From: a virus
Reading direction: 5' to 3' (one strand)
Virus record (IMG/VR): IMGVR_UViG_3300015371_000223
Location: 1 to 20,805 of that record
DNA: 20,805 bases
Of the stretch, positions 8 to 20,805 are shown in pieces (within the stretch, counting starts at the first letter, position 1; the number at the start of each line of letters is the position of its first letter). The translations under genes were made by a program, and so were the position numbers. The notes beneath the pieces are model-generated. The model had not been told where the DNA came from and searched no databases. It was given only the letters and a program-made list of their open reading frames with translations.

Positions 8-324
8 TTGATCGCCGACGTGAAAGGACTGCTGGCCGGGATACGCCCGCCGAGGCCGGTGGACGCGGCGGCGTAGAAAGCTGGTTCCTGCGAACCTACC
101 AGGGCTTGCGTGAGCACGCCAATCTGCTGGTGTCCGAAGGATACAGTAGAGATTGCGTGTGGTCGATGCCTCTTGGGGTAATATGGACCGAGGCAGCCCT
201 GACAAGGCGGCGTATCAGGGGGCAGGCGGTGTTGAACGCGGTCCTCATCCACGCCGCTATCGTGGACGCAATCGGCGGCGGGGGTCATTTGAAACGGGTC
301 ATCGAGGATATCGAGGATGAGTGA
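1..324 (+). CDS. Tail-assembly chaperone, downstream (T-like) part, partial at left edge
   Basis: This frame is open from base 1 to the TGA at 322-324 (107 codons), so the gene starts left of the window. A TTG at 106 exists, but the frame continues upstream of it and there is no reason to start there. The protein has a basic, glycine-rich beginning, a middle containing WFLRTYQGLREHANLL, and an acidic end (VIEDIEDE). Size and position match the second chaperone domain made in siphophages by frameshifting, which recruits the tail tube protein to the tape measure. The family is inferred from synteny, since no sequence motif is diagnostic. It overlaps the tape measure start by 8 bases (ATGAGTGA), which suggests translational coupling. 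Confidence 0.6.
   Translation, partial: KKIDRRRERTAGRDTPAEAGGRGGVESWFLRTYQGLREHANLLVSEGYSRDCVWSMPLGVIWTEAALTRRRIRGQAVLNAVLIHAAIVDAIGGGGHLKRVIEDIEDE
2..76 (+). CDS. Possible C-terminus of tail-assembly chaperone, short (zero-frame) product, partial
   Basis: Positions 2-76 form an open frame reading KKLIADVKGLLAGIRPPRPV followed by DAAA and a TAG stop. If the upstream gene enters in this frame, this is the tail end of the short chaperone (gpG-like) that coats the tape measure before tail-tube polymerisation. Only 24 codons are visible and no domain can be judged. The reasons to list it are its place directly before the tape measure gene and the A-rich slippery run at its left end, which would let a minority of ribosomes move into the frame ending at 324. 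It could equally be a chance open frame, with the real gene running only in the frame of 1-324. Confidence 0.35.
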   Translation, partial: KKLIADVKGLLAGIRPPRPVDAAA

Positions 325-3300: not shown

Positions 3301-4507
3301 CGACCGTTACAAGTCGCTCGTTAAGGTGGTTGACGATCTTGAGCGTGGCCTGAACAAGACCCAGAAGACCGAGTTGGCGAAACAACTTGAGGAGATCGAG
3401 CTACGCTACAAGAACATTCGTGAACAGTTCGAGCAAGGTCGGCGCGAGGCGCCGCTGACCGGCGCCGCCCGTATCACCGAACTCGAACAACGCCTCGGGC
3501 CGTTGCAAGCCCGCGAGAGTTTCGATGTTCGCCGCAAAGCGGCGGAAGATTCCGCTAAGGCAGCCCTCCAGACCCGTGACGAACTCATCCGGAGCTACGA
3601 CAGGCTCTACGAGATGGGTGAGGTTACCCTGGAGGAAAAACAAAAGAAGACCAAGGAAGCCATCGAAGCAGCCACTCCTGCCTTGCTTGAACAGGCAGAC
3701 GCCTTGGAGAAGTGGGTCGAGGAAGCCCGAAAGGCCGGCAACATTCCCGCTTCGGTGCTCGACAAGGCTACCGCTTCCGCCAAGGAGTTCCGCGCCGAGA
3801 CGAAGTATATAGACCCGTTCTGGAAAGGGCTGAAGACCACCATCGAGGACAGCTTCGGCACCAACCTGACCGAAGCCTTCAACACTGTTGCCGAAGCTGT
3901 CGGCAAGGCCGTCACCAAGACCGGCGAGTGGAAGGACGTGCTCGTTTCGTTGAAGACCGCCGCCGGCTCGTTCTTCGCCGGCATCCTGAAAGACATCGCC
4001 GCCTACATCATCAAGGTCGAGGCGCTGAAGCTGCTACAGAGCGCCGGGTTGTCGCTGCCGGGGCTGGGGCTGGGCGGTGTCACCACAGCCGCGACCGGCA
4101 CGGCGGCAACAACCGGCATGTCCTCCGGGTGGTCCTCGATCCTGTCGGGGGCGGCTGCCGTGGCGCACGCGGGCGGCACCGTTGGCGTCACTCAGTTTCC
4201 GACCCGCCCGGCGCCGGCCTCTTGGTTCGACCGGGCGCCGCGCTACCACACGGGAGCAGTGGTTGGACTGGCCGCGAACGAGCAGACCGCGATCCTGCAA
4301 CGCGGCGAAGAAGTGCTGACCCGCGACAGCCCGCGCAACGCGATGAACCTGCGCGGCGGCGGCGGGGGAGAGATCAAGATCAGGTCTGTGCTGGTCGCCG
4401 ATCCCGATATGGTCCCGAGCGCGATGTCGGGTTCGATGGGCGAGCGCGTGGTTGTGCAGCACTTGGTCAAGAACGCGGCGACCGTGCGCCAGATTGTGCG
4501 GGGCTGA
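317..4507 (+). CDS. Tail tape measure protein with embedded M15-like peptidase signature
   Basis: This 1396-residue protein sets tail length and is probably ejected at infection to help DNA cross the envelope. Residues about 20-360 and 840-1200 are Ala/Glu/Arg/Gln-rich coiled coil. Residues about 396-432 carry the lambda-H-like tape measure signature (GYQATDILQGFASGVSP, then QQGPQ), followed by a hydrophobic segment at about 434-457 that could insert in the host membrane. Residues about 720-835 show S764-x-H766 and D773 (SEHYMRRALD) and D825-A-G-H828, the spacing of zinc ligands in M15 peptidases; the usual Gly is Arg769. The C-terminus (about 1310-1336) has the family ending with RGEEVLT. 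The ATG at 317 has GAGG at 304-307, 9 bases upstream. At roughly 1.5 angstrom per residue the tail could approach 200 nm, less what the globular insert takes up. The identification is very safe; activity of the peptidase domain is inferred. Confidence 0.96.
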   Translation: MSDRGGGALTRDVILRISAQNLSTADFRAATAAVNELTAAVDKQIEAAAKGTVKEKELTEALSKLNDAGKSFTGFARIIENLKGLDIQIAAQIKRVAEAKEAWDKQQAAVDANDNATKKELSRLAGLKTGHENAVKALNGQIERQKAYRDELEKNGLDAQNLANAERQLLAVVDQAGLAVNKLTQARDNYAKILRQTKEEELKNIQVQEAATKAAQERAAAEREVAHALEQAQQRMFARDREISRAEVGTGAQAHLAALAAERKAEQDRIAAERAAEIERGRIRQAANEIALSLQRQRNEARRKAEEEGSRQAVEAERARQAELARVRQEADEKARAAEAAALSRFDRFREQRMRGRTQERQSVDDLARTEARAAQNRSRTGQQPGFLGLRSYEITNLGYQATDILQGFASGVSPATILAQQGPQVFQIFGLAALKWLPVVAVAAGAVTVAIGAMATALRQITAERQFSAAIAANIDLVRYNAKQLVEYQKNIQDMGVSWADAGKAIRTAMSQNIASDRITQLAQTAKDVSRITGDEVPDAMKKLVTGFTNGEKGIKELNQELGFLNDKDLEHIETLYKHGKAVEAIDFAYGKLATRYKNAAEIATTPFQKSVESLTVSWNELLRTLSDSETINKLIGLLTRFVNLLDQGVQAIDRMIERQKELKFAPTSEAAAEQQRMLEDAAAGRMPTAPRPSGVVPIPGGLATGNARVQTGTLKVDTTELRDLVAALNEASKGLPEGYQLRVADPSLHNKYVAGSNPPRISEHYMRRALDVAVLDEAGNVVPGYMRRGGPLYEQIDAAVAKYVQENKLGPLAIGTYFPNKPDAGHFSLRGPEAESAEITRGMPGVRAQQMQAEATRKERDAAKDASRDAREAYALEQARNREEAARLERIKVERDIRAQFPNLTPAEQARMAAEKMAPFLLKQRIEATREQQDIEQKLLQTRTHAAEAEAARQKAIAEATKNNITNYNQLKEIGDRAAATEEARLSAIDQENDRYKSLVKVVDDLERGLNKTQKTELAKQLEEIELRYKNIREQFEQGRREAPLTGAARITELEQRLGPLQARESFDVRRKAAEDSAKAALQTRDELIRSYDRLYEMGEVTLEEKQKKTKEAIEAATPALLEQADALEKWVEEARKAGNIPASVLDKATASAKEFRAETKYIDPFWKGLKTTIEDSFGTNLTEAFNTVAEAVGKAVTKTGEWKDVLVSLKTAAGSFFAGILKDIAAYIIKVEALKLLQSAGLSLPGLGLGGVTTAATGTAATTGMSSGWSSILSGAAAVAHAGGTVGVTQFPTRPAPASWFDRAPRYHTGAVVGLAANEQTAILQRGEEVLTRDSPRNAMNLRGGGGGEIKIRSVLVADPDMVPSAMSGSMGERVVVQHLVKNAATVRQIVRG

Positions 4508-4510: not shown

Positions 4511-7102
4511 ATGCCTCTCGAAAACATAGGGGTCTGGAGTGCGCCGCCCGATTGGGCGGACGGGTTGCTGGAAGCCCTGGAGTGGCAGACCAGCGTCTTG
4601 AAGTCCACCTTGGCCTACGAGCAACGCTTCGGTACTCGCCTGTCGCCCAGGCAGAACTTCACGGTCAATTTTACCGCGCACGACGAACAGCGGATGATGC
4701 TCGATCTGTCGTCGCTGGCTATGGGCGGCTCGCCCTTTTATCTGCCGGTCTGGCACGACGGTGAGCTTCTCGCGTCTTCTGCCGCTATCGGCGACACCGT
4801 TTTGTATCTCGACGCAACCGATACACAGTTTCTCGATGCGCGCACGGTGATGCTCTGGCGCGATGCGTTTCACTACGAACTGGCGGCGGTTGTCCAAGCT
4901 CTTCCCGGCGGGGTGTTTGTTGAAACCGGCCTCTTAAACAACTGGCCGAAAGGAACTCGTTGCTATCCGGTGGTCAAGGCGAAGTTCATGGCGTCGCCGA
5001 CACCGCAACGCAGGGGAAATCGCGCCTATACGGTGTCGATCCAGTTTCAGTCGCTGGAGCGGACGCCCTCGTCGGCGCTGGTTCCACTGCCGATTTACGA
5101 AGATTATTACTTGCTCGACATGGAGCCTAACGACGCGACCGATTTGCAATATACGATAGATCATGTTTTCTTCAACCTCGACAACACGACGGGGTTGCAG
5201 ACGCTCTACGATGTCGTCAACGACCCGGCGCAGGAGTTCAATTTCTGGGCCAAGGGTCGGGCGGCGCATCGCAGGCTGCGCGGGTTGTTGTATTTTCTCG
5301 ACGGCAAGCGGGTGCCGATCTGGGTGCCTACCTATTTCGCCGACTTCCAAGTGGTTGAGAATATCTCTAGCGGCGACGCCTCGTTCGAGGTCAAACGTTG
5401 CGGTTTCACCGATCTCGGCGGGCCGTTCGTCAACCGCGATCACATACAATTTAACGTGATGGGCGGCGGTCGCCTGTATCGTAAGATCACTGGCTCTGCC
5501 CTGGTCGGGGACGGCGACACCGAGCGGATCGCGGTTGATACGGAATTTCCCGACGATATCCCGGCAGCCATGATTAACCGCGTGAGCTTTCTCGTGCTGT
5601 GCCGGCAGGACGCGGATTTAGTGGAGTTGGAACACCACACCAACACGCGCGGGATGACAACCGCCAAGACCACATTCCGCGCCGCCAGGAACAGTGTCGT
5701 TCCGTCTATCGGCGAACGCTGCCTGCAACAGTTCCGCTGGTTTGCACGCACGCCTGCGGTAACGCAGGCATCACAACTCAGTATGCCTATTCCATGTAAT
5801 ATCGACAAGTTTAACAATTATTATTTTATCGAGAGTATAGCCAGTGTTCCGACCGTCAGCATCACCGGGCTGTCCGGTGTATTGTTGAAGACCTACACCC
5901 GTGCCGATTTTATCGCGGCCATAAATACATGGTACGGTAGTACGATTGTTGATTCCGGGGCTTTGACCGAAACCCAGACGAACATGGAGATATCGCCGAT
6001 CTATGCCGGCCAGTATGTCGCCTGCCGTTTCTGGGCGGCGCAGTCGGGCAGGGCTTTCGACAACTGGTTCGTGCTGTTCGAGCCGCACCTCGACGGCACC
6101 CTGACGGTCCTGGGCGCGCACTGGCACCGAGGCACGACCGACATGCCCTTTATCCACGGACTCTGGTTCTACGAGCCGTTGAGCCTGGAGCAGCCGATTT
6201 TCTACGGCGCCTTCGCCGGGTTCGGCGGCGTGTCTTTCGTGATGGGGGCGCTGCCTTCGATCAGCCAGTTTCTCGACGGCACCTACCACGCCGGGTATCC
6301 GGGGTACGGCCCGCTGCGGATACGCGCGGCCGGCTACTACCCTATCGGCAACAGCACCAACCTGACGATCCGGTGGGCGAGCTATCCGGCGACCGGAACA
6401 AACCAGAGCCGGGGGTTCGGATTCATTTTGCCGGGAGACGACGGAAACTTATATTATTACCACTACCTCAACCGCGAGCACTTGCAGAACATGAGCAGCA
6501 GCGGGGCGAACAACCCCGAGGTCTACAACGTTATCGCGCCCGCTTATCCCGATGGTTGCATCCTGCGGATCGGGTTGGGCAACCACAGTTATGGCAGTAT
6601 CGCCTCCAGTACAACCCGCGTCAATCTCGATACTCATATATTACCGACTGCCAACTACATAATAGATAATGCCGATTGGCAAAATGCGGACGATTCCCCC
6701 GCTATTCCGTTTCCCGACGAGTACACATACATCTCGACCGACGAAGCCGGCGGGGTGGATTGTTACTCGATGCAGATCGGGGGCGTCCAGAAACGGGCAA
6801 ACGGAAAGTATTGGGTCATATTCTATATGATCGGTTACAGCGATTATGCGCACTATAGCCTGGGCGCCACCACATTGCGGATCAAAGCGTTCGAGTTCGA
6901 TCCTGCCACGCTGATTGCCAAGCTGAAGTATATCGGTACTTGCGTCGTGCATAACGATCTGCAAATTCCGGCTTCCACTGCCGCACGCGGCAACGACCAG
7001 TATCTGCACATTACGATTACCGAGTCGGGGCCGGTGGCTACGGTCAACGTGTACGGCCCGATTTACCGCTCCACGTTCAGTTTGTTCGAGGTGGGGATAT
7101 GA
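4511..7102 (+). CDS. Minor tail (tail-tip) protein with large C-terminal extension
   Basis: This 863-residue protein starts 3 bases after the tape measure stop. Residues 1-393 resemble a phage tail protein found between the tape measure and the DUF2163-type hub protein in many siphophages: a start with LEALEWQTSVLKSTLAYEQR, a stretch PFYLPVWHDGELL (75-87), RGNRAYTVSIQFQSLE (168-183) and LLYFLDGKRVPIWVPTYFADF (about 259-279). It probably belongs to the ring at the distal end of the tail tube. Residues about 394-863 are not part of that core. They are rich in Tyr, Trp and Gly, contain stretches such as GYPGYGPLRIRAAGYYPIG, and look like beta-structured surface domains, perhaps for binding host glycans. 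I cannot name a family for this extension. The role in the tail is confident; the exact tip position is inferred from gene order. Confidence 0.82.
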   Translation: MPLENIGVWSAPPDWADGLLEALEWQTSVLKSTLAYEQRFGTRLSPRQNFTVNFTAHDEQRMMLDLSSLAMGGSPFYLPVWHDGELLASSAAIGDTVLYLDATDTQFLDARTVMLWRDAFHYELAAVVQALPGGVFVETGLLNNWPKGTRCYPVVKAKFMASPTPQRRGNRAYTVSIQFQSLERTPSSALVPLPIYEDYYLLDMEPNDATDLQYTIDHVFFNLDNTTGLQTLYDVVNDPAQEFNFWAKGRAAHRRLRGLLYFLDGKRVPIWVPTYFADFQVVENISSGDASFEVKRCGFTDLGGPFVNRDHIQFNVMGGGRLYRKITGSALVGDGDTERIAVDTEFPDDIPAAMINRVSFLVLCRQDADLVELEHHTNTRGMTTAKTTFRAARNSVVPSIGERCLQQFRWFARTPAVTQASQLSMPIPCNIDKFNNYYFIESIASVPTVSITGLSGVLLKTYTRADFIAAINTWYGSTIVDSGALTETQTNMEISPIYAGQYVACRFWAAQSGRAFDNWFVLFEPHLDGTLTVLGAHWHRGTTDMPFIHGLWFYEPLSLEQPIFYGAFAGFGGVSFVMGALPSISQFLDGTYHAGYPGYGPLRIRAAGYYPIGNSTNLTIRWASYPATGTNQSRGFGFILPGDDGNLYYYHYLNREHLQNMSSSGANNPEVYNVIAPAYPDGCILRIGLGNHSYGSIASSTTRVNLDTHILPTANYIIDNADWQNADDSPAIPFPDEYTYISTDEAGGVDCYSMQIGGVQKRANGKYWVIFYMIGYSDYAHYSLGATTLRIKAFEFDPATLIAKLKYIGTCVVHNDLQIPASTAARGNDQYLHITITESGPVATVNVYGPIYRSTFSLFEVGI

Positions 7103-7968
7103 CCTTCCGCACGCTTGAGCTTTCGGCTTACGACGGTCAACCGCTACAACTTTACGAGTTCTCCCGAGCATCGGGGGACAGTATATTCTACTGGCGCTAC
7201 AACGGGTCCGACCGTGACATCACTTATAGTAGTGACTTGTACAAAGCCGTGTCGATCTCGGATGCCGGGGCGACGTTCAGCGCCGACCAGCTTTCCTCCG
7301 ACCTGATCGTGACGATGCCGGCCGTCGAAGACTTTCCCCAGCAATACCGGCTGGAAGGTACGATACCCTCCGATACGATCATGCTGCGCATCCGGCGGGC
7401 GCACGCCTTCGACATCGCCGACATCGAAACCGCCCCCGTAGCCACCGAGGCGCCCCTAGTGTGGGTCGGCACGGTGTCGGGGGTCAAGCACACCACCGAA
7501 GTCCAGGCGGAAATCACCTGCGCAATGATGACGGCGTCGTTGCAGAGGCCGGGATTGCGCCAGGGCTACCAGATAAGCTGCCCGCACATCCTCTATGCCC
7601 CAACCACCTGCAAGGCCGATCCGGCGGCGTTCGCGGCAGGCCCGATCACGGTGGTTGGATTGGCCGGCTCGCGCGTCACCACCGACCTGCTGGGCGGCTA
7701 CGCCAGCGGCTACTTCACGGGCGGCTATATCGAGTATCTGACGCCGGCCGGGTTCCAAGAGCGCCGGTTCCTGACCCAGCACGCCGGCAACGTAGTCACC
7801 ACGATGGGGTTCCCCGCCGGCCTCGCAGTGGGCAGCACGCTGTTCGCCTACCCCGGCTGCAATAGGACGACCAACCACTGCGAGTTCAAGTTCTTCAACC
7901 TTCCCAACTACGGAGGTTTCCCGCATACTCCCGGCCGTAACCCATTCGACGGGATGCCCTTGTTTTGA
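7099..7968 (+). CDS. Tail hub/baseplate protein, DUF2163 / phage BR0599-like
   Basis: This 289-residue protein overlaps its upstream neighbour by ATGA and has GAGGTGGGG just upstream (7088-7096). The C-terminal signature YPGCNRTTNHCEFKFFN, then NYGGFPHTPGRNPF, is typical of the BR0599/DUF2163 family, which includes the hub protein of the Rhodobacter gene transfer agent and is functionally like lambda gpL. Four cysteines, C161, C171, C254 and C261, sit in the two conserved patches (SCPHILYAPTTC and PGC...HC); C141 is extra. In relatives these patches hold an iron-sulphur cluster that stabilises the tail tip, and the same is inferred here. The protein would sit at the end of the tube beneath the central tip protein encoded at 8416. 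Confidence 0.9.
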   Translation: MTFRTLELSAYDGQPLQLYEFSRASGDSIFYWRYNGSDRDITYSSDLYKAVSISDAGATFSADQLSSDLIVTMPAVEDFPQQYRLEGTIPSDTIMLRIRRAHAFDIADIETAPVATEAPLVWVGTVSGVKHTTEVQAEITCAMMTASLQRPGLRQGYQISCPHILYAPTTCKADPAAFAAGPITVVGLAGSRVTTDLLGGYASGYFTGGYIEYLTPAGFQERRFLTQHAGNVVTTMGFPAGLAVGSTLFAYPGCNRTTNHCEFKFFNLPNYGGFPHTPGRNPFDGMPLF

Positions 7969-8228: not shown

Positions 8229-8419
8229 TTATGGTCCGTATGCGGCACTTGAGGGCTGCCGGCATGTGCAACCGCGAACCGCGCAAATTTGGCATGAGAC
8301 AGGGCTGGAGTTGGGCCGAGTTCCTTGAGCGCGGGATTGCGGTAGAGATAGTCGAAGCTACCGGCGACCCCCTCGCTCTGCGCGTGGCTGAGATTGCCCG
8401 CAGAGAGGCTTCCGAGTGA
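8225..8419 (+). CDS. Small conserved tail-cluster protein, function unknown
   Basis: This 64-residue protein begins at ATG 8225 (ATGA overlap) and ends inside the GTGA overlap with the tip gene. The frame stays open upstream to 7976, but that part lies over the neighbouring gene. The sequence has an N-terminal basic RMRHLRAAGMC, a middle GMRQGWSWAEFLERGI, and a C-terminal helix ATGDPLALRVAEIARRE. Small proteins of this shape, with x-x-RAAG-C near the start and ATGD-LALRV near the end, recur immediately before the tail-tip gene in proteobacterial siphophages. No function is known; a chaperone-like role in tip assembly would fit its place but is only a guess. Alternative starts at ATG 8231 or 8240 are possible. 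Confidence 0.75.
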   Translation: MIMVRMRHLRAAGMCNREPRKFGMRQGWSWAEFLERGIAVEIVEATGDPLALRVAEIARREASE

Positions 8420-10950
8420 GCCTTAAAAGCGGCAGTAGTTCTACTTCGCAAATTACCGGCTACCGCTATGAGATGGCATTCCATATGGGGATATGCCACG
8501 CTCCGATAAACGAACTCAACCAGATCAACGTCGGCGACCTGACGGCTTGGATAGGTTCGCTTCAGACCACCGACTTTGCGACGATAGACCAGCCCGATCT
8601 GTTCGGCGGCGACACCAAAGAGGGCGGTATCGTCGGGACGTTCAAATTGTTCCTGGGCCTGCCGGATCAGGTTGTCGATGATATCATTGTCGAGCAACTG
8701 ACCCCCGGCCTGCCGGTGCCGGGCTGGCGCGGCGTCACCACGTTATTCTATTACGGGCAGATTTCCAGCAACAACCCGTATCCTAAAGTCTGGAAAGTCA
8801 GGGCGAACCGCTCGACGGCAGGCTGGGAAAACGGCGTCTGCTGGTACGCCGACAAGTGCCGCCTGATCGTCAACGAAGATTTGATATCGTTTGTCATATT
8901 CGACAACAACCCCGAGGACGGCGATGTCCTGTCCATCGGCGGGGTCGAGTTATCGTATGTGACGGCCGACGCGGACGAGCACCAAGTGCTGATCGGCAGC
9001 GACATCAGCACGACCATAGACAACACGGTCACGTTTATCAACTTCAACCACGATATCTACAACAACGCGGTTGCCTCGGGTACGGGCGGCAATCAGATGC
9101 AGCTTCTGTTCTCGACCCCCACCACGGTGGTTGAAACAGTCGGGGATTTCATCACCGTGGTGTCGGGTGACGCCGACATCAAGGCGATGAACCCGGCCCA
9201 CATAATATACGAATGTTGCACTAATACGGTATGGGGGCGGGGCTACCCGGTATCTTTTATTGACGACAGTTCTTTCAGGGCGACCGCCGATAAGTTGTAC
9301 GACGAAGGTCTGGGCCTGTGTTTCCGGTGGACTCGCCAGGAGGACGTGGACAGGTTTGTCCAGAAAGTCATCGACCATATCGGCGCGGTGTTGTACATCG
9401 ACCGCACCAGCGGGTTGTTGACCCTCGACCTGATCCGCGACGATTACGATCCGGACACGCTGACCACCTATGGTTTCGACAGCGGATTGCTCGACATAAC
9501 CGAGGACGAAAGCGCGTCGGCCGACACCAGCTATAACGAAATCATCGTTAAGTACACTTCGCCCCTCAACGGCAAGGCGGGGCAAATCCGGGTTCAAAAT
9601 CTCGCTTCGTTCCAGAGTGTCGGAGCGGTGATATCAACCACGGTGGAGTACCCTGGTGTTCCTACCGCGACCCTGGCGGGCCGGTTGGGGATGCGCGACT
9701 TGCGGGTCAGTTCCGGCGATTTGCGGCGGTTCAAGCTCAAGATGGACCGGCGCGGCTTTTACATCAAGCCGGGCGGCGTGTTCAAAATCCACGCTCCGAC
9801 TCGGGGCGTCGAGTCGATCATCGTGCGGGCCGGCACAATCGAAGACACCACCCTGACCGACGGCACGATAACCGTGGGCGCGGTACAGGACGTGTTCACA
9901 CTGGACGACGCGACTTATCTCGCCCAGCAACCCAGCTACTTTATCCCGGCCGTCAAAGAGCCTCGAATCATCCAGCTTCGCGATGTAGGCGAGATGACTT
10001 GGTACGACGCCGCCGACAATCTGCCGCCCCTGTTGACGGACCAACTGGACAACGACACCGGGGTTATCAAGGTGTTCGCCGCCAATCCCGGCGGCGGCGC
10101 CATAGAATACCGGGTCACCAGCCGGGCAGGCGGCGAGACGCTGTTCGGCAACCGCTCGATCGCCGGGTTCGACACGGCGGCGACGTTGCGCACTTCTATG
10201 GGCTGCTACACCACCGATATCGAGATCGAGCCGCTCTCGGGCCTCCTGGCCGGCGGGGTTGCCGTGGGGCAACCCGTGCTGATCGGGGAAGAATACTGCG
10301 AGGTGGTTGATTTCGACGTTGGCGCGAAGACGCTGACCGTGGCGCGCGGGTGCATCGACACGATCCCAACGCCGCACTCGGTCGGCGACACGATCTGGTT
10401 TCAGACGCACTCGCCGACCACCGACTTCCGCGACTACGCGACCGGCGAGGATGTCGAAGTAAAGCTGCTGACCCGCACAAGCTCACAACAACTGGACGCA
10501 TCTCTCGCCCCGGTGGACACGGTGACCATTGCCGCCCGGCAGGCGCGTCCCTATCCACCGGGCAATGTGCTGGTCAATACGGTAGGATTTTGTAATCCGC
10601 ATGTGATTAGCGGCGATATCACGCTGACCTGGGCGCACCGTGACCGCATCGTGCAAGGCAATGTCTTGTTGGACCATAGCGCCGCGAGTACCGGCCCCGA
10701 GACGGGCGTGACCTACACCGTGCGGGTGTACGACGGGACGACCCTGCTTCGCACGGTGACCGGCATCACCGGCACAACCCTGGTTTACGACACGACTATG
10801 GCAGCCGCAGACGGCGATCCGGGGGTGCTGTGGTTCGAGCTTGAATCTGTGCGGGACGGGCTGGCGTCCTGGCAGCACTATCGTTTTGCGGTGAGCCGGC
10901 CGGCGACATTCGACTTCGGTTTCGACTTCGACTTCGATGGGACATTGTAA
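8416..10950 (+). CDS. Central tail-tip / host-specificity protein (J-like)
   Basis: This 844-residue protein starts at GTG 8416 (GTGA overlap, GAGG at 8405-8408). The N-terminus has the family pattern TGYRYEMAFHMGICHAPINE then VGDLTAW. Residues about 259-345 hold a very conserved block (NPAHIIYECCTNTVWGRGY ... YIDRTSGLLTLDLIRDDY), and about 612-665 the EEYCEVVDFD ... VARGCIDTIPTPHSVGDTIWF pattern. Residues about 708-830 look like one fibronectin-III-type domain. Residues about 153-256 appear to be an inserted beta domain (GDVLSIGGVELSY, then GGNQMQLL). The protein caps the tail, plugs the tube and contacts the receptor. It ends in an odd Phe-Asp repeat (FDFGFDFDFD). Family placement is strong; receptor and trimeric state are inferred. 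Confidence 0.9.
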   Translation: MSLKSGSSSTSQITGYRYEMAFHMGICHAPINELNQINVGDLTAWIGSLQTTDFATIDQPDLFGGDTKEGGIVGTFKLFLGLPDQVVDDIIVEQLTPGLPVPGWRGVTTLFYYGQISSNNPYPKVWKVRANRSTAGWENGVCWYADKCRLIVNEDLISFVIFDNNPEDGDVLSIGGVELSYVTADADEHQVLIGSDISTTIDNTVTFINFNHDIYNNAVASGTGGNQMQLLFSTPTTVVETVGDFITVVSGDADIKAMNPAHIIYECCTNTVWGRGYPVSFIDDSSFRATADKLYDEGLGLCFRWTRQEDVDRFVQKVIDHIGAVLYIDRTSGLLTLDLIRDDYDPDTLTTYGFDSGLLDITEDESASADTSYNEIIVKYTSPLNGKAGQIRVQNLASFQSVGAVISTTVEYPGVPTATLAGRLGMRDLRVSSGDLRRFKLKMDRRGFYIKPGGVFKIHAPTRGVESIIVRAGTIEDTTLTDGTITVGAVQDVFTLDDATYLAQQPSYFIPAVKEPRIIQLRDVGEMTWYDAADNLPPLLTDQLDNDTGVIKVFAANPGGGAIEYRVTSRAGGETLFGNRSIAGFDTAATLRTSMGCYTTDIEIEPLSGLLAGGVAVGQPVLIGEEYCEVVDFDVGAKTLTVARGCIDTIPTPHSVGDTIWFQTHSPTTDFRDYATGEDVEVKLLTRTSSQQLDASLAPVDTVTIAARQARPYPPGNVLVNTVGFCNPHVISGDITLTWAHRDRIVQGNVLLDHSAASTGPETGVTYTVRVYDGTTLLRTVTGITGTTLVYDTTMAAADGDPGVLWFELESVRDGLASWQHYRFAVSRPATFDFGFDFDFDGTL
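10909..10938 (+). repeat. TTCGAY hexanucleotide run at the end of the tip gene
   Basis: Five 6-base units in a row read TTCGAC, TTCGGT, TTCGAC, TTCGAC, TTCGAT, just before the last three sense codons and the TAA. They encode alternating Phe and Asp/Gly. Gain or loss of units would keep the frame, so the effect would be on the length of the C-terminal tail rather than on/off switching. Confidence 0.7.
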
Positions 10951-12440
10951 TGCCCGGTAGTACTGGACCGCACATAGGGCTTGTATGGGGTTATTCCCCC
11001 GGAGAGGTCGGTTGGGGCGTCGGCGGGTTCAATCCGAATTTCGCCCGGCTGGAAGCACTCACTCAACTAAGCGTGACCAGCATCCTCTCGACGCCGCCGG
11101 GATCGCCGGCCAACGGCGACACCTACATCGTCGGCGCGTCCCCTTCCGGCGCCTTCGCGGGACACGCCGACAGCGTGGCGGTCTGGTACACGGTCGGGAC
11201 GCCCGCGTGGCTGTTCCTGCCGCCCGCCCGTGGACACCGGGCGTACAACGCCGCCACCTCCTCGTACTGGCGCTACACCGGCTCGGCGTGGGCCGAGGAG
11301 ACGGCGGTGACCGGGCCGGGAAGCTCGGTTGACGGCAACTTCGCGATGTTCAACGGCACTACGGGCGAGGTTCTCGCGGACAGCGGCAAGTCCGTGCCGA
11401 TTGGGGATGTTGTCGGAACAGACGACATCCAGACGCTCCAGAACAAGACGATAGACGGCGACGATAATTCGCTCCTAGTGCATCTCAACAGCGACGTGAC
11501 CGGCAACCTGCCGGTCGGAAACCTGAACGGCGGAACCGGGGCGTCGTCAACTACCGCATGGTTCGGCGACGGGACATGGAAGACGGTTACCAGCGGGGGC
11601 GGGGGCGATGTCGTCGGGCCTGCCGGCGCGGTAGCGGGGCATCTGCCGGGCTACGCCGACACGACCGGCAAACTCTTGAACGACAGCGGCATCCCGGTAG
11701 CGGACGTGCTGCTGGCCGGCGGCGCGCTGGTGACCGGCAACTTCCTGACCGTCGATGGGGGCGGCGATGTTGTCGATAGCGGCGTCTCGGGCGTCAGCAC
11801 CGGCGATGTCGTAGGACCGGCCAGTTCAACCACCGGGCATCTGCCGAGCTACGCCGATGCGACCGGCAAACTCCTGGCCGACAGCGGCATCCCGGTGGCC
11901 GACGTGCTGCTGGTCGGCGGCGCGCTCGCTGTCGGCAACCTGCTGACCGTCAACTCGGGCGGCGATGTTGTCGATACCGGGCTTCCCGCCGCCACGCGCA
12001 CGGTGCCTGCCGGCACGGCGAATTACGATCAGTTGGTGTGGGACGGCTCCGCGTGGACGGTACAACGTGCGAAGTACATAATCGCTTTCGACTTGGCGGG
12101 CGTCTTAGCAATCGACCGCGTGTTTTCTCACGTATTTACGAAAGCGGTAACAATACCCGACGATTTCGGTTCGTATCTGGGCCACAGTAGCCAGGGGCGG
12201 GGCAGCGTCGCGGCTACGGGATCGCCCGTTATCACCGTGGCTAAGGCAACCAGCGCCTCGCCTCTCAGTTTCAGCAACGTCGGTACGATAACTATTACCG
12301 CAGGCGGTGTGGTGCCGGTGTTCGTAACCACAGGCACCACACTGAGCTTTGCTACGGGGGACACCATCAGGTTCAAGGTGACAACCGGCGATACAACTTT
12401 TGCCGACTTGATCTTAACCGTCGTAGGGTTTGAGAGCTAA
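10950..12440 (+). CDS. Tail fibre protein with DUF2793 domain and collar-type repeats
   Basis: This 496-residue protein starts within TAATG. Residues about 40-117 match DUF2793, a domain found in phage and prophage fibre proteins (PPGSPANGDTYIVGASPSG, then SVAVWY...W.FLPPARGHRAYN, then YWRYTGSAW). Next come fibre repeats of the type GHLPGYADTTGKLLNDSGIP, seen twice in near-perfect form (period 66 residues) with a weaker copy before (FAMFNGTTGEVLADSGKSVP). These probably form a trimeric beta-helical shaft. Residues about 375-496 are a Thr/Val-rich beta domain, likely the distal knob. The gene directly follows the tip gene, as for side or central fibres. The receptor is unknown. Confidence 0.87.
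   Translation: MPGSTGPHIGLVWGYSPGEVGWGVGGFNPNFARLEALTQLSVTSILSTPPGSPANGDTYIVGASPSGAFAGHADSVAVWYTVGTPAWLFLPPARGHRAYNAATSSYWRYTGSAWAEETAVTGPGSSVDGNFAMFNGTTGEVLADSGKSVPIGDVVGTDDIQTLQNKTIDGDDNSLLVHLNSDVTGNLPVGNLNGGTGASSTTAWFGDGTWKTVTSGGGGDVVGPAGAVAGHLPGYADTTGKLLNDSGIPVADVLLAGGALVTGNFLTVDGGGDVVDSGVSGVSTGDVVGPASSTTGHLPSYADATGKLLADSGIPVADVLLVGGALAVGNLLTVNSGGDVVDTGLPAATRTVPAGTANYDQLVWDGSAWTVQRAKYIIAFDLAGVLAIDRVFSHVFTKAVTIPDDFGSYLGHSSQGRGSVAATGSPVITVAKATSASPLSFSNVGTITITAGGVVPVFVTTGTTLSFATGDTIRFKVTTGDTTFADLILTVVGFES
11604..11985 (+). repeat. 198-bp tandem repeat in the fibre gene (two copies)
   Basis: A unit beginning GGCGATGTCGT starts at 11604 and again at 11802, giving a period of 198 bases or 66 codons. 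Long stretches are nearly identical (CATCTGCCG, CTACGCCGA, GACAGCGGCATCCCGGT, GACGTGCTGCTG). The second copy fades after about 11985. The unit encodes a fibre-shaft repeat, so copy-number change would alter fibre length in frame. Confidence 0.85.
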
Positions 12441-12442
12441 AT

Positions 12443-13933
12443 ATGCCAGCACTTCTCTTGATCGACGGCTTCGATAAGTACGGCACGCCGGGTATGAGCG
12501 CGACTCTTACCGCAGGAGATTGGGCAACATTTAGTGCCAGCACCGTGGGCAACTCGCTAAATCCTGCCGGCGTCGGGTATGCAGTAGGATTTAACATAGG
12601 GGGAGGATCAACAAGCAATACATTTTCCGCCGTCTCGCGAATTGTTGGCACTGTTCGCGTCGGCAGTAATGTCAGTGCGTCTATAACACTGCGCAACGGC
12701 GCGACCGCAGCATTTACGATACAGTTGTCGGTGGCGGGGGGATTAGTAATAAGGACCGGCACTTCATCCGGCTCTGTCATTGCTTCCGGCGGCACTTACG
12801 CCGGTACGAACTCGGTCATAACATTTGACGTAACCATAGGGGCGAGTTCCTCCTATGCGGTGTACCTCGATGGCAGCCTGATACTGAGCGGCACGGGGAA
12901 CACCGGCAACGGACAATCGAGCGTTAATACTTTACAGTTGGCGTCCTCTGCCAATACCACTTACTTCGATGACCTTGCGCTGTTCGATCCTACTAACAGT
13001 AACTACAATTCCGGTGTGCTTACCGCAAATGCCGTGGTCGAAACTCAGTTTGGAAACGGAGATAACCAAACGCAATTCGTTAATGATGGTGACGTGGTAT
13101 TACCGGCGGGTATCAGCCTGCAAAGCACATACCGTGTGGGATCGACTACAACTGCACCTGGGGCAAACCAGATAGTTCTGCTCAAGATTACGCCTAACCT
13201 GACGCGAACTTTGAATAACGTCCTTATGTGGGTTAACACAACTAGCGCCACGGCAAAATTCAAAGCAGTGTTGTACAGCGATAGTGCAGGCTCCCCCAAC
13301 GCCCTGCTGTCCGATGGTATCGAGGTGGTTGGCTGTACCAGCGGAGGAAATGTTATTGGCGCTCTCGTAACGCCTCAGACGATAACCGCCGGTACGTCGT
13401 ACTGGATTGGCTTCTACATGGATACGGCGATAACCATACAGGCTTACGACAACCTTTCGAGCAATTTGGGACAGCGTAAAGCAAATACTTACACGTCGGG
13501 CGCACCCGGCACTCTGACGGGTATGACTACGGGGCAGTTCACCTATTATATGTGGGGTAACTGCACCGGCTCGACGCAGAACTATCTCGCTCTTAGCCGT
13601 AATCCTCCGGTAGCGTCCGACCTCAGTCAGGTTCACAGCGCCACGGTTGGAAATGAGGATTTATTTAATTTTCCGGCAATGCTTACAACACCGAGCGCGA
13701 TCTACGGGGGCGCGGTCAAAGTCTACGCGAATAAGTCCGACGCCGGCACCCGCACGATGAACATTAACATGAAGTCGGGCGCAACCGATGCGAACGGCAC
13801 CAATACCGCCATAGCGATATCGACCACGTTCCAGTGGTGGGGCAGCGTGTTCGACGTAGACCCGGCAACCGGCACAGCGTGGACGGCGTCAGGCGTTAAC
13901 AACGCCAAATCCGGCTATAGCGTGAACACATGA
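12443..13933 (+). CDS. Virion-associated lectin-like (jelly-roll) protein with inserted domain
   Basis: This 496-residue protein begins 2 bases after the fibre stop. The start MPALLLIDGFDKYGT and the run to TTYFDDLALFDPTNS (about 173-187) match the concanavalin-like jelly-roll seen in many phage structural proteins (first beta strand IDGFD.Y, last strand ..YFDDL.L.D). A typical C-terminal half also follows: NEDLFNF (404-410), AVKVYANKSDAGTRTMN (424-440) and DVDPATGTAWTASGVN (471-486). Between them, residues about 213-379 look like an extra domain with AVLYSDSAGSPNALL and AGTSYWIGFYMDT. The role is probably glycan or surface binding on the virion; this comes from the fold and not from known relatives with assays. 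Base composition looks less GC-rich than in the tail-tip genes. Confidence 0.75.
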   Translation: MPALLLIDGFDKYGTPGMSATLTAGDWATFSASTVGNSLNPAGVGYAVGFNIGGGSTSNTFSAVSRIVGTVRVGSNVSASITLRNGATAAFTIQLSVAGGLVIRTGTSSGSVIASGGTYAGTNSVITFDVTIGASSSYAVYLDGSLILSGTGNTGNGQSSVNTLQLASSANTTYFDDLALFDPTNSNYNSGVLTANAVVETQFGNGDNQTQFVNDGDVVLPAGISLQSTYRVGSTTTAPGANQIVLLKITPNLTRTLNNVLMWVNTTSATAKFKAVLYSDSAGSPNALLSDGIEVVGCTSGGNVIGALVTPQTITAGTSYWIGFYMDTAITIQAYDNLSSNLGQRKANTYTSGAPGTLTGMTTGQFTYYMWGNCTGSTQNYLALSRNPPVASDLSQVHSATVGNEDLFNFPAMLTTPSAIYGGAVKVYANKSDAGTRTMNINMKSGATDANGTNTAIAISTTFQWWGSVFDVDPATGTAWTASGVNNAKSGYSVNT

Positions 13934-14752: not shown

Positions 14753-15451
14753 ATGACCGCCACGTTCAAGACACTGGACCCGTGTACCAACCACCTGCTT
14801 GACTTTATTGCGGGAGGCGTACCGACGAACAAATACGGCGAGAGCGCGGGAAATTATGATGCTATTTTTGGAGATATTGAGGGAAATACCTACGGAGATT
14901 TGTCGCAGAAGACCCTGACGCAAATCTACGATATGCAGACCGAGATGGTGGCTAAGAACGGCGTCAGTTCAGCCACCGGACGCTATCAAGCTCTCAAGAG
15001 CACATTGCAGGAGTATCAGGACCGCAAGAAATTACCGGGCGGCGCGTTGTTCACTCCGATCATGCAGGACGATTTCGGCCTGACCAAGATGAAGGATCGG
15101 GGATATTCGGAGTGGAAGAGCAACGCCATCGGTGACGACGAGTTCATGCACCGGCTCAGTTGCGAGTGGGCCAGCCTGCCAGACCCCTACAATGGCGGCA
15201 AGTCGCACTATGACGGCGACAGCGCAGGCAACCACGCCTCGACCACGCTGGCGCATTTCCGCGACGCGCTGCGCACCGCGTCGGGCTATATCAGCACGTC
15301 GGTCATGGACGCCGACATGGGCATCCGCACGATCCAGGCGACCCTGGTGCAGACCGGCGACCTCCCCAGCATGGCCTCTGTCGATGGCGTGTTCGGGCCG
15401 CAGTCGAGAGCGGCGCTGGAGCGGCTGATCGCGAGAGACAACCGGAGTTAG
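14753..15451 (+). CDS. Endolysin: lambda-R-like lysozyme fold plus peptidoglycan-binding domain
   Basis: This 232-residue cytoplasmic enzyme would cut the glycan strands of peptidoglycan at lysis. Near the N-terminus, YGESAGNYDAIFGD places a likely catalytic Glu at residue 30. SSATGRYQ (72-79), QDDFGLTKMKDRGY (105-118) and EWASLP (138-143) line up with STGAGRYQ, the QD...RG segment and WASLP of the lambda R transglycosylase, so a lysozyme-fold muramidase or transglycosylase is very likely; which chemistry it uses cannot be told. Residues about 188-228 look like a PG_binding_1 domain (IRTIQATLVQTGDL, then VDGVFGPQSRAALERL). There is no signal peptide, so release needs a holin, and none is certain in this window. 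Its place inside a run of virion genes is unusual but not unique. Confidence 0.9.
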   Translation: MTATFKTLDPCTNHLLDFIAGGVPTNKYGESAGNYDAIFGDIEGNTYGDLSQKTLTQIYDMQTEMVAKNGVSSATGRYQALKSTLQEYQDRKKLPGGALFTPIMQDDFGLTKMKDRGYSEWKSNAIGDDEFMHRLSCEWASLPDPYNGGKSHYDGDSAGNHASTTLAHFRDALRTASGYISTSVMDADMGIRTIQATLVQTGDLPSMASVDGVFGPQSRAALERLIARDNRS

Positions 15452-16018: not shown

Positions 16019-16429
16019 ATGGCAACTTTTCAAATCAGCGTAGCACAACAGAACGCACGGCTCGATGCGATGGAGACGGAGGCAGGGGCGAGTCCGATCC
16101 TCAAGATATACAGCGGCAGTTTGCCGACTAACGTAGCCGCCGCCAGGACCGGCACGGTGTTGTCTACCTTGACGCTCCCGTCAGACTTCATGCAGGCGGC
16201 GGCATCCGGGGCCAAAGCGTACAATCCGACATGGAGCGACACCGCAGCGGATGCCGCCGGCACCGCCGGCTACTTCACTTTGTTCAAGTCGGACGGAACA
16301 ACCGGGTGCTGGCAGGGCGACATCACAACCACCGGGGGCGGCGGCGCGATGACGATAGACAACATCGTGTTCGCCGCCGGTCAGGCGTTTACGATCACAG
16401 GCTTCACGCTGACCGACGGTAATGGATGA
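16019..16429 (+). CDS. Conserved phage fibre-region protein
   Basis: This 136-residue protein has ATG 16019 with GGAG at 16009-16012. The pattern VAQQNARLDAMETEAGASPI, LKIYSGSLPTN, TLTLPSDFM, DAAGTAGYFTLF and GGGGAMTIDNIVFAAGQAFT is common among small proteins in fibre regions of phages infecting Gram-negative bacteria. It is probably a beta-sandwich virion component, but no activity is known. It sits 3 bases after paralogue A and overlaps the next gene by ATGA, so it is made as part of the same coupled set. Confidence 0.82.
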   Translation: MATFQISVAQQNARLDAMETEAGASPILKIYSGSLPTNVAAARTGTVLSTLTLPSDFMQAAASGAKAYNPTWSDTAADAAGTAGYFTLFKSDGTTGCWQGDITTTGGGGAMTIDNIVFAAGQAFTITGFTLTDGNG

Positions 16430-17795: not shown

Positions 17796-17797
17796 AA

Positions 17798-18103: not shown

Positions 18104-18711
18104 CCTACCGGCTGTTCTTCGGCACGGCAACACTGGCCCCGCTCACCGGGGCAGCAACGGTAACACTACGCGCGGCCACGCTGGCCGCGTCAGGCAAGCT
18201 GGCGATCAGCGGCAGCCTGGATCAGACCCTGCACCCGGCCACGCTGGCCGCGTCAGGCAAGCTGACGATCAGCGGCAGCCTGAACCAGACCCTGCGCCCG
18301 GCCACGCTGACGGCTACCGGCTACCTCCAACCACTTGCACACGGCGCCGCAACGGTCACGCTGCGCCCGGCTACGCTGGCCGCAACCGGGCTGCTGGCCC
18401 TCTCGGGTGCGGCAACCGTCACGCTGCGCCCGGCCCAGGTGGTTGCATCAGGGCGGCTGGCCCTGTCGGGCGAAGCCGATGTCACGCTGCGCCCGGCCAC
18501 GCTGATGGCGTCGGGCAAGCGGGTGGCGCAGGGCGAGGCGGCGATCACCCTTGTTCCGGCCACGCTGACGGCGTCGGGGGCGCTCCTGCGCGGGCTGATC
18601 GGCGAGCGCCACCGGCTCTACGGCACGCAATCGGCGCCGGCCATGCTGACAGGCACCCGACGAGGCGCGGTTGTGCTGAACGGCGACTCCGACATGACAC
18701 AGGTGGCATGA
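18100..18711 (+). CDS. Repeat protein of seven 21-residue beta repeats
   Basis: This 203-residue protein starts at GTG 18100 (GTGA overlap). Residues 17-165 are seven head-to-tail repeats with consensus GAAxVTLRPATLxASGxLALS. Units start at residues 17, 38, 59, 82, 103, 124 and 145; the third has two extra residues. Alternating small and hydrophobic residues with a TL..ATL..SG rhythm suggest stacked beta strands, as in a fibre shaft or beta-solenoid. The final 38 residues (GERHRLYGTQ ... LNGDSDMTQVA) are different and may cap or attach the rod. A longer frame on the same strand (18090-19088) is open over this gene only because the repeats avoid stops there. Similar repeats are known in phage and bacterial surface proteins; no function is assigned. 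Confidence 0.8.
   Translation: MTYRLFFGTATLAPLTGAATVTLRAATLAASGKLAISGSLDQTLHPATLAASGKLTISGSLNQTLRPATLTATGYLQPLAHGAATVTLRPATLAATGLLALSGAATVTLRPAQVVASGRLALSGEADVTLRPATLMASGKRVAQGEAAITLVPATLTASGALLRGLIGERHRLYGTQSAPAMLTGTRRGAVVLNGDSDMTQVA
18148..18594 (+). repeat. Seven 63-bp coding tandem repeats (one unit 69 bp)
   Basis: Units begin at 18148, 18211, 18274, 18343, 18406, 18469 and 18532. The DNA core (C/G)CTGCGCCCGGC(C/T)ACGCTG recurs through most copies, and units 1 and 2 share GGCCACGCTGGCCGCGTCAG. All changes in copy number would stay in frame. Confidence 0.85.
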
Positions 18712-19088
18712 TGGCGGTCAACCAGAACTTTGAATTGTACAGTGGCGACACCGCAGACATATCGTTCGTGCTGACCGACGTGCAGGGGCTGCCGCTGGTG
18801 CTGACCGGCCTCGTCCTGTGGTGGGGCATGGGCGATATTCTGAAGAGTTCACCGGACGACATCACGGTCGAGGACAACATAGCCACCGTGCATCTCGTCC
18901 CCGATGACAGCATCGAGTTAACCACGGGTGGGTTGCGGCACCAGTTGCGTGCCGTGGGCCTTACCGGGCGCGTCGAGACGTTTGCGACCGGCGTCTGCCG
19001 GGTTACCGAGTCGGTGTTTCAGCCCGTCGTCGCCCCTGTCGTAGTGGGCGTGCGGACACTACGGTTGATTGGAGGCGCGCGTGCCTAA
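18708..19088 (+). CDS. BppU-N-like baseplate/decoration protein
   Basis: This 126-residue protein starts at ATG 18708 (ATGA overlap, AGGTGG upstream) or the next ATG at 18711. The sequence NFELYSGDTADISFVLTDVQ, GLPLVLTGLVLWWGMG, VHLVPDDSIELTTGGLRHQL and VETFATGVCRV follows the pattern of small immunoglobulin-like domains related to the N-terminal domain of the BppU baseplate protein: Q/S-GDT, a D-x-x-G-x-P-x-x-L-T-G turn, then a final G-x-x-x-V strand. Such domains attach receptor-binding proteins to tails. Here it would link to, or sit beside, the large protein encoded next, whose GTG lies within this gene's last 8 bases. Confidence 0.75.
   Translation: MMAVNQNFELYSGDTADISFVLTDVQGLPLVLTGLVLWWGMGDILKSSPDDITVEDNIATVHLVPDDSIELTTGGLRHQLRAVGLTGRVETFATGVCRVTESVFQPVVAPVVVGVRTLRLIGGARA
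19071..19075 (+). promoter_or_regulatory. Ribosome binding site fixing a GTG start
   Basis: GGAGG lies 5 bases before GTG 19081. It supports that GTG as the start of the large partial gene at the right edge. Confidence 0.75.
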
Positions 19089-20805
19089 GACAGCTTACGA
19101 GATCGCCAACGTCAAACTGCATCCGCTTAATTTTATTGCGGAAGAGGGATACGTCGGGGAAGTCGCGGTCGATACGGTCGGCGAGCCGTTCGCCGGTACG
19201 GTAGAGATATTTGAAGGGGAGTTATTTGCCGTGGTCGGCAATGTCATTTCATCTGCGCCGCTCCCGGTCGGGAGCTACTCGCTGACCCTCTTGGTGAAAG
19301 ACCGGGGGCAGGCATATTACTCGATGCAGACGGTCACGGCGCGCGGCGTGGCACGCCCGCCCGATGTCATCATCGACCCTCCGGAACCCGATACCGACAA
19401 CACGATGACCCTGGTCAATGTGTCGGGGACGGAAGTTGTCGATTATCCGCTTCAGTTCGCCCGAGCTTTTGTAGAAGGCGAAATCCTCAACTACGCCGAG
19501 ATCATCCTTGATGGCGAGGTAATCCCGACACAATGCGACGTAAAGAACCGCTGGGGCGACGGGTCGATCAAGTTCGCCATCATGGCAGCCGTGGTGCCGT
19601 CTCTATTGCCGGGCATCCCAACCACCGTGCAGTTCATTAACGGCACCTCCAACAACACGCCGTCCGATCTGTCGTCGGTCGCGGGCTACGACGCCGGGAT
19701 CATGCTGACCAACCCGGTGGGGGGAGCGGTGGTGTACGCCAGCGCAAAGGAGATGCTGCAAGCCGGTAAATTTTCGTTTTGGACAGTAGGACCAATCGCG
19801 CAAACATATGTGTGTTGCGACCGCTCGACGGCGCGTATGTACGATATGGGCTGGAGCAGCTACCGGGCGGTCCATCCCTGGTTTGTCGTGACCGTGTGGC
19901 CCGGCCTGGGCAAAGTCTTTACGCGATACGTCGGCGAGATCGGCAACACCGAAGCGATGGAAGCGCAGACCTACAACCTCGATCTCACGGTGGCTGGGGT
20001 AGGGGTGTACAGCCAGCACAACATCGCGCATTTGCCTGCTACAAGGTGGTCGCGAACGGCATGGTACGGCGGGACGCCGGAACCCAAGGTTAATTTATAC
20101 CACAATTTCGTGTATCTGGCGCAGGCCAAACTGGTGCCGAAATACGACCCGACTGTCGTAATACCGTCGAGCAGGCTGGAGTCCCGCTACGCAAGTTGGC
20201 TGGGGTCGAATCGTGCCATAGGTGGGCCGGGCCTGTGGCAAGTGTATATGCCGAACACGGGCGGAAGACTGGACATAGGTCTGAATCCGTCTTGGTCGGC
20301 GAGCGCCTTGATGAGCGGCGACTGGCGTGACCGCGAGGTCATGCTGGGCCAAGCGGAACTGGCGGGCTGGTGGAAACGCCACATACGAGAGGGCGACCCC
20401 ACCAAGAACAATTTTGGCAGGACCATCCACTGCCATACCAGAGGAACCTATGGATTCCTTGACGACCGTTTTACGCCAGCGGCACAGGACGATGTCGTAA
20501 TAATCAACATGGGTGTCGCGAACGACTGGGTATCGGATATCGCGCACCATCCCGAGCCATTTGCTATTCCATATATTATGACCGGCGATCCATTCTTTTT
20601 GGATGGCTTGGAGATGTGGCAGGGGGCCAACTCGTTGTTCGGCAACCCAGGCTACCGGAACTTCAACCACATGACCTGTTACGGTGACGGTCAGGTGCGC
20701 TCGATGGGCTGGATGTACCGGACGTTGTTTATCGCCGCCGCTTTGCTGCCCGACGCGGACCCGTTGCGCCCTGCGTTTGTGCAGATGGTCGGCGAGGCTA
20801 TCGCA
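19081..20805 (+). CDS. Large putative depolymerase (PcRGLX/YetA-like), partial at right edge
   Basis: From GTG 19081 the frame is open for 575 codons to the window end, so the C-terminus is missing. Residues 1-90 look like a small beta domain (PVGSYSLTLLVKDRGQAYYS), then a Pro-rich linker (PPDVIIDPPEPDTDNT). Residues about 108-300 resemble the N-terminal RIFT-barrel domain of exo-rhamnogalacturonan-lyase-like proteins: YPLQFARAFVEGEI, then ILDGEVIPTQCDV and RWGDGSIKFAIMA at 157-169. The remainder is rich in Trp, His and Tyr (WYGGTPEPK, GLNPSWSASALMSGDWRDRE, NFNHMTCYGDGQVRSMGWMYRTLF) and helical at the end, as in an alpha/alpha toroid. A role in cutting host capsule or other surface polysaccharide is inferred. 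Catalytic residues cannot be named. It overlaps the upstream gene by 8 bases. Confidence 0.72.
   Translation, partial: MPKTAYEIANVKLHPLNFIAEEGYVGEVAVDTVGEPFAGTVEIFEGELFAVVGNVISSAPLPVGSYSLTLLVKDRGQAYYSMQTVTARGVARPPDVIIDPPEPDTDNTMTLVNVSGTEVVDYPLQFARAFVEGEILNYAEIILDGEVIPTQCDVKNRWGDGSIKFAIMAAVVPSLLPGIPTTVQFINGTSNNTPSDLSSVAGYDAGIMLTNPVGGAVVYASAKEMLQAGKFSFWTVGPIAQTYVCCDRSTARMYDMGWSSYRAVHPWFVVTVWPGLGKVFTRYVGEIGNTEAMEAQTYNLDLTVAGVGVYSQHNIAHLPATRWSRTAWYGGTPEPKVNLYHNFVYLAQAKLVPKYDPTVVIPSSRLESRYASWLGSNRAIGGPGLWQVYMPNTGGRLDIGLNPSWSASALMSGDWRDREVMLGQAELAGWWKRHIREGDPTKNNFGRTIHCHTRGTYGFLDDRFTPAAQDDVVIINMGVANDWVSDIAHHPEPFAIPYIMTGDPFFLDGLEMWQGANSLFGNPGYRNFNHMTCYGDGQVRSMGWMYRTLFIAAALLPDADPLRPAFVQMVGEAIA

Follow-up and report, generated by a model that had tools for sequence, protein, structure and literature searches.

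The window analysed here is an entire viral record, IMG/VR record IMGVR_UViG_3300015371_000223, with a length of 20,805 nucleotides. Its last gene (hereafter the edge gene) runs off the end of the record (Table 1), as an earlier note made from the letters of the sequence had stated. The gene is truncated by the record end, because the record itself has only 20,805 bases. A TTG at position 19069 could also serve as the start codon, and the open reading frame (ORF) upstream ends at 19088. Relatives of the edge gene are present in five other viral contigs, with 67–77% identity in the best segments. Complete close relatives of the edge protein have 797–835 residues, and comparison of the match ends with the ORF ends of these relatives indicates that about 217–245 C-terminal residues are missing. 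Searches of the edge protein against Pfam (E ≤ 10), PHROGs, and PDB chain sequences give nothing useful. Structure models and deeper profiles are the sole informative routes.

Both structure models are of the relative at locus L001, and the window protein is a row of both alignments. Model 1, of full-length L001 (835 residues), is made from 18 sequences (excluding L007 and also L002, which has two ambiguous residues) and has a predicted local distance difference test score (pLDDT) of 70 and a predicted template modelling score (pTM) of 0.71. Model 2, of the L001 core alone, is made from 29 sequences and reaches a pLDDT of 87.2 and a pTM of 0.90. It excludes L002, L007, L020, L082 and L085 (short), L075 (same protein as L074), L086–L088 (large inserts), the loci from genome searches, and the same-contig duplicates L008–L011, L013, L068, L070, and L080.

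The L001 core model contains a RIFT-type β region and an α/α toroid, the two folds that the earlier note had guessed and whose absence it had set as refuting. In Foldseek searches of the PDB (E ≤ 0.001), 12 of 12 matches of model 1 and 5 of 5 matches of model 2 are PcRGLX, the exo-rhamnogalacturonan lyase of family PL26. In VIA-align, model 1 matches PL26 with Z 13.4 over 504 residues. For model 2, four PL26 entries give Z 11.3–11.7 over 492–517 residues with root-mean-square deviations (rmsd) of 4.3–4.5, although Z below about 13 in mostly helical parts can reflect a common arrangement. The best of them (Z 11.7, 514 residues, rmsd 4.5) aligns model residues 1–715 to chain residues 26–920. Among the matches listed, only PL26 spans the whole core, and the next match has Z 8.8 and covers the toroid only; families absent from the lists are not counted as excluded. 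The overall RIFT–β–toroid architecture of PL26 is present in the L001 models, and the fold is very likely carbohydrate-active. A right-handed parallel β-helix is found neither in the secondary structure of either model nor among the PDB fold matches, in agreement with the earlier suggestion of an architecture that differs from β-helix depolymerases. In a viral model library, three proteins match at E ≤ 0.001, two of them uncharacterised Caudovirales phage proteins and one nameless.

At the sequence level, a profile of 33 core sequences is compared with 26 PL26-type sequences, of which 7 are in alignment A3 (including L034, with a PcRGLX match at E 2.9e-179) and 19 are more distant. The RIFT part matches PL26 in hhalign with P 6.8e-10 over 114 columns, and the reversed control gives 0.51. 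As far as profiles can tell, this confirms that the RIFT part is homologous to PL26. The whole core aligned in global mode gives P 3.9e-10 (reversed, 0.13). In the same mode the toroid by itself gives 0.59, and we therefore ascribe the whole-core signal to the RIFT part.

Domain libraries recognise the family poorly. The Pfam model of the RIFT domain, PF19501 (PcRGLX_1st, gathering score 22.1 bits), has no match in the window protein at E ≤ 10 and scores 13.6 bits in L001. It reaches the cut-off only in gp39 of EBPR siphovirus 1 (23.3 bits). Below the cut-off, it picks the family gene in G005, G006, contig 77 of G007, G010, G011, and G012, and it has no match in 8 of the 15 records or genomes searched, all 8 of which hold a family member. 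The toroid model PF21346 has no match in Pfam scans of family members. A search of PDB sequences with an 8-row profile gives merely two chance-level matches. For five relatives, NCBIfam returns one irrelevant weak match, and PHROGs returns nothing for four and weak matches for EBPR gp39 (best E 0.046).

Several results weigh against a PL26 assignment. The fold match is distant, because the Foldseek TM-scores are low (0.19–0.30 for both models). For model 1, the toroids of GH76 (Z 12.5) and GH105 (12.4), which match the helical part only, fall less than one unit below PL26, and the toroid alone also resembles epimerases (Z 8.8), GH105 (8.1), and GH88 (8.1). Smaller profiles give a weaker RIFT match (E 2.1e-5 and 5.2e-5; probability 77% and 67%), and with a smaller profile the RIFT part alone gives P 5.8e-7, with a reversed control reaching 0.0049. 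Homology of the toroid to PL26 is not detected in local and global hhalign with reversed controls. Since the toroid gives P 0.055 against 0.6 for the reversed control, it is not treated as homologous. Because the window protein has no Pfam match and the toroid shows no detectable sequence homology, we file the family as PL26-like and not as a formal member of PL26. The PcRGLX/YetA-like depolymerase of the earlier note is thus supported in its fold, as seen in the models, and in its RIFT sequence, but neither in the toroid sequence nor in formal family membership.

Residue conservation is read from a 29-row alignment of phages and bacteria of several phyla, in window numbering and at sites before the cut. 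The RWGDGSIKFA signature, singled out earlier, is located in the RIFT barrel, and D153, K155, R157, D160, and G161, in or just before it, are identical in 28 of 28 rows. The invariant His, Tyr, Arg, and Trp (Table 1) are located in the toroid part. Gly502 is likewise invariant (29/29), whereas Asp558 (28/29) and Asp470 (27/28) are nearly so. In contrast to His, Tyr, and Arg, no Asp or Glu is invariant throughout the 29 rows. A His/Tyr/Arg set of this kind fits β-elimination of a uronate-containing polymer, as in toroid lyases. The richness in His, Trp, and Tyr described in the earlier note is real but modest (10.4% in residues 345–575 versus 6.2% in nine other window proteins). We reject it as evidence because, of 992 sliding stretches taken from those nine proteins, 80 are at least as rich.

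The core might instead belong to a sugar-active toroid enzyme other than a lyase, for instance a glycoside hydrolase. The epimerase, GH105, and GH88 matches of the toroid would fit such an enzyme, as would a match of the RIFT/β part to GH38, and acids able to serve a hydrolase are conserved (Glu286 and Glu437 in addition to Asp470 and Asp558). However, the whole layout is matched by PL26 only among the matches listed, the RIFT homology is to PL26 (the sole family compared in that way), and no acid is among the residues invariant in every row. We therefore regard a non-lyase core as rather unlikely, and a lyase as somewhat more likely than a hydrolase.

In front of the core lies a separate N-terminal domain. 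In L001, the N-terminus of the model (about residues 11–104) matches a cadherin domain with Z 12.5 and rmsd 1.9 over 90 residues. The N-terminal domain of the window protein is 28–32% identical to those of five relatives, with alignment scores of 89–106 versus a shuffle maximum of 47; judged by these scores, it is a diverged homologue of the cadherin-like domain of L001. By eye, neither of the cadherin calcium motifs LDRE and DxNDN is present in the window N-terminus. Across the family, the N-terminal parts vary: some are cadherin-like, some Ig-like by eye, some short, and some have a bacterial Ig domain and weak Kelch matches. The domain is a probable adaptor. Of the 'attachment-like' N-terminus proposed earlier, the separate domain is borne out, with attachment as a putative role.

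Comparison with relatives reveals a boundary close to the end of this domain. When the window is compared by blastn with the loci of seven relatives, four close relatives share the stretch from 19381 or 19394 to the end with 77–81% identity. L004 and L012 match in the later part of this stretch (75–76%), and L069 in two short pieces (68–71%); nothing besides this stretch is found at these loci. Identity of the window core is 84% with L001 and 76–78% with L002, L003, and L005, whereas that of the window N-terminal domain with these relatives is only 28–31%. A tree of 33 chosen rows joins the window and L001 with support 100/99. The placement of L007 and L014 in this tree is unsure, because both are long branches that meet. 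Among L001, L002, L003, and L005, the N-terminal domains are 57–80% identical. The core of L069 is only 56–57% identical to those of the same four relatives, yet its N-terminal domain is 58–64% identical.

The relatives belong to another type of phage. The head–tail adaptor family phrog_332, which we take to be typical of T7-like podoviruses, is found at about 1e-151 in all five close relatives searched, and the window families phrog_778 (tail assembly) and phrog_2335 (tape measure) are not found in these five. The searches covered five of six close relatives, without L004 (5.2 kb), and the records can be fragments. The absence of phrog_332 from the window says little, because no head genes are recognised in the window. 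Podovirus-type phages thus carry nearly the same core, and the version of the adaptor in front of it is clearly different. This suggests that the catalytic part is a mobile cassette that passed from one phage type to another and came to lie behind another adaptor. An enzyme docked to the virion would need such a change, and adaptation to another tail may be the reason for the difference. Fast divergence of the N-terminus alone, instead of a swap, could also give this pattern. Furthermore, a comparison of positions 1–19380 with the seven whole relative records has to be set against the cassette: it yields one shared stretch of about 190 bases, in the L001 record. Positions 15442–15633, covering the end of the endolysin gene and the region behind it, are 80% identical to positions 24384–24574 of the L001 record on the other strand; they have no Rfam match, no tRNA, and an ordinary folding energy.

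The genes of the window form the tail module of a long-tailed phage of siphovirus type (Table 1). The endolysin gene is followed by small genes, including one for a virion structural protein, and then by the edge gene. Two small paralogous genes (15716–16015 and 17798–18103; 54% identity over 98 residues) flank the cluster of small genes. The 203-residue protein encoded at 18100–18711 consists of short repeats that vary the sequence TLRPATLAASG. A longer overlapping ORF, 18090–19088, reads this region in another frame, so its real start is probably near 18708 or 18711.

Table 1 Features of the window and of the edge gene, in order of position
Feature	Position	Strand	Basis or remark
Tape measure protein (long-tailed phage)	317..4507	+	phrog_2335, E 2e-47
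Tail assembly protein	7099..7968	+	phrog_778, E 5.6e-64
Tail protein, large	8416..10950	+	phrog_1101, E 8.9e-254
Tail-fibre-like protein	10950..12440	+	phrog_35360, phrog_7049
Protein without assigned function	12443..13933	+	Homologue (35% identity) shortly upstream of the enzyme gene in relative L011
Endolysin	14753..15451	+	phrog_90, E 2.1e-19
Virion structural protein between endolysin and edge gene	16019..16429	+	phrog_3758, E 1.7e-24
GGAGG ribosome-binding-like site	19071..19075	+	5 nt before GTG; read from sequence
Edge gene	19081..20805	+	GTG start; 575 aa; no stop before record end
N-terminal domain, aa 1–105, cadherin-like β-sandwich and proline-containing linker	19081..19395	+	L001 model; alignment to relatives
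Breakpoint where DNA common to podovirus-type relatives starts	19381..19394	+	blastn and sliding identity
RIFT barrel and second β region, about aa 108–341 (transferred from L001)	19402..20103	+	Two models; hhalign to PL26
RWGDGSIKFA signature, RIFT barrel, aa 157–166	19549..19578	+	Alignment
Glu286, β region	19936..19938	+	28/28 rows
First part of helical α/α toroid, about aa 342–575, cut by record end	20104..20805	+	Two models; VIA-align
Arg436 (28/28) and Glu437 (27/28)	20386..20391	+	Alignment
Arg454	20440..20442	+	28/28 rows
His489, candidate catalytic residue	20545..20547	+	Invariant 29/29
Tyr498, candidate catalytic residue	20572..20574	+	Invariant 29/29
Arg540 and Trp544	20698..20712	+	Invariant 29/29

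The enzyme represents a family and not a one-off: in addition to the window, 26 viral contigs carry relatives, and so does EBPR siphovirus 1, the only match among 50,697 phage records. One plasmid (Skermanella rosea) matches among 72,556, and ten family loci are in bacterial metagenome-assembled genomes (MAGs). In the class of G007, 6 of 101 genomes hold the family, and two of the six were already in the set. As queries, EBPR gp39 and the Uhrbacteria protein find no viral contigs, and L014 finds only itself. Two phage members fall beside bacterial proteins in the tree, L083 next to one from an Acidobacteria MAG (support 94/80) and L006 next to those of Nitrospirales (100/100). As far as tree placement goes, this suggests exchange of family genes between phages and bacteria.

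Neighbouring genes show that the family is present on phage contigs. They were compared with PHROGs at selected loci (20 stretches, with a match in 16; L071–L073, L076, L077, L084, and L086–L088 excluded). The enzyme gene is accompanied by terminase, tail fibre, and head–tail adaptor genes in L011, portal and terminase genes in L074, scaffold and major head protein genes in L081, a major head protein gene in L013, connector and terminase genes in L083, and a tail fibre gene in L069.

Individual members carry further features. At L008 (closest relative, contig IMGVR_UViG_3300025944_000018; 8505–9725 and 9696–10826), an array of 19 direct repeats of about 33 nt, 79–97% alike and spaced by 65–68 nt, lies directly downstream of the enzyme gene. 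It is CRISPR-like, with unusually varied repeats, and is followed on the opposite strand by a TnpB/Cas12f1-like gene (PF07282, E 6.9e-23; PF01385). In L087 (4657–8832), the core is fused behind a region that looks by eye like an SGNH-type esterase, with no Pfam match. In L079 (5605–9639), repeats of the type GGSGYxSAPTVTI are inserted in the C-terminal part. L007 (6972–11402 of JF412302.1) is EBPR siphovirus 1 gp39, and gp40, annotated as 'glycoyl hydrolase', comes directly after it. By eye, the N-terminus of L083 (5383–9171) is signal-like, and its long C-terminal extension gives a weak Kelch match.

Taken together, we lean towards reading the product of the edge gene as an enzyme of two modules, probably carried on the tail, that cuts polysaccharide of the host surface. 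In this reading, the cadherin-like N-terminal sandwich and the linker would dock the enzyme to the virion, and the core of about 710 residues, with its RIFT barrel and β region on an α/α toroid in the PL26 arrangement, would hold the polysaccharide chain. The chain would most likely be cleaved by β-elimination next to a uronic acid. Invariant Arg may neutralise the carboxylate, and His489 and Tyr498, chosen for their invariance, may act as base and acid. The core would be a mobile cassette, placed behind a different adaptor for another tail.

We consider it likely that the protein is located on the virion. In the window and in selected relatives, the gene sits among phage structural genes. In the window, it comes after the endolysin gene and not directly after the tail-fibre genes, which weakens an argument from proximity to the fibre. 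An independent occurrence of the N-terminal domain would strengthen a docking role, but searches find it on no other phage protein: the window domain has no independent occurrence, the L001 domain matches only its own relatives, and the weak matches in phages have a best E of 0.05 (a cyanophage 'virion structural protein'). The docking role is therefore putative.

The same enzyme could be made in the infected cell and be released at lysis or secreted, loosening the biofilm or capsule around neighbouring cells. The position after the endolysin gene is consistent with such a role, and the cadherin-like domain could be a mere spacer. Moreover, L083 combines a signal-like N-terminus with terminase and connector genes on its contig, so some phage copies, L083 among them, may be secreted. 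Several cellular relatives also look secreted by eye; L016 and L021, for example, have a hydrophobic signal-like stretch at the N-terminus. On the other hand, a virion structural gene is also located after the endolysin gene, the N-terminal domain differs between tail types while the core stays, and no hydrophobic signal-like stretch is seen by eye at the N-termini of the window, L001, L003, and L005 proteins. We judge release or secretion unlikely, a little more so than a hydrolase core. A receptor-binding lectin on a dead enzyme scaffold, to which the lack of any member here with demonstrated activity would lend itself, is highly improbable, as His, Tyr, Arg, and Trp are strictly invariant (29/29) across phages and several bacterial phyla, unlike in a decayed site.

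Returning to the tail-carried enzyme, a further idea is put forward only tentatively. A PL26-like, possibly exo-acting lyase core may travel between podovirus- and siphovirus-type tails and be re-fitted by changing a small cadherin-like adaptor, as an independent enzyme hung on the tail, unlike trimeric β-helix spikes. Such a natural swap between tail types would mark a module boundary, and complete relatives exist that could be expressed. Apart from the Pfam model of the RIFT domain, the phage family is not named by PHROGs, NCBIfam, or Pfam, and it has a different enzyme architecture.

Among known systems, PcRGLX of PL26 (PDB 5xq3, 5xqg, 5xqj, and 5xqo) shares with the family the order of RIFT barrel, β region, and toroid, the fold of the whole core, and a homologous RIFT part. 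It differs in that the structure matches have only 7–12% identity, the window clade falls below the Pfam cut-off, the toroid shows no detectable sequence homology, and the phage family has an extra cadherin-like N-terminal domain and occurs on phage contigs. Among 14 control genomes, Pfam PcRGLX_1st and PcRGLX_3rd match Bacillus subtilis and Bacteroides ihuae. Among the papers listed in literature searches, none is on a phage PL26-type enzyme. EBPR siphovirus 1 gp39 (JF412302.1) has 28–31% identity over about 44% of the query, but it has a short N-terminus without the cadherin-like domain and is annotated as hypothetical. The relatives in Nitrospirales, Acidobacteria, Planctomycetota, and Uhrbacteria MAGs have the same core, with 24–38% identity to L001, but some have signal- or lipoprotein-like N-termini by eye and other accessory domains.

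The β-helix phage depolymerases and tailspikes share the proposed task, degradation of host polysaccharide from the tail, but the L001 models have no β-helix. The rhamnogalacturonan-lyase match described in PMC13243795 is a β-helix, and PMC10194240 describes pectinesterase-like tail proteins of prophages that match rhamnogalacturonan lyases in structure, the fold being unstated in that account. In the fold counts given for the DepoScope survey, 984 phage fold hits comprise 844 right-handed β-helices, 119 β-propellers, 11 α/α toroids, and 10 TIM barrels, and toroids are described there as omitted from training for lack of examples (PMC11326577). By those counts, β-helices dominate phage depolymerase folds, and a toroid-type family adds a different architecture to them.

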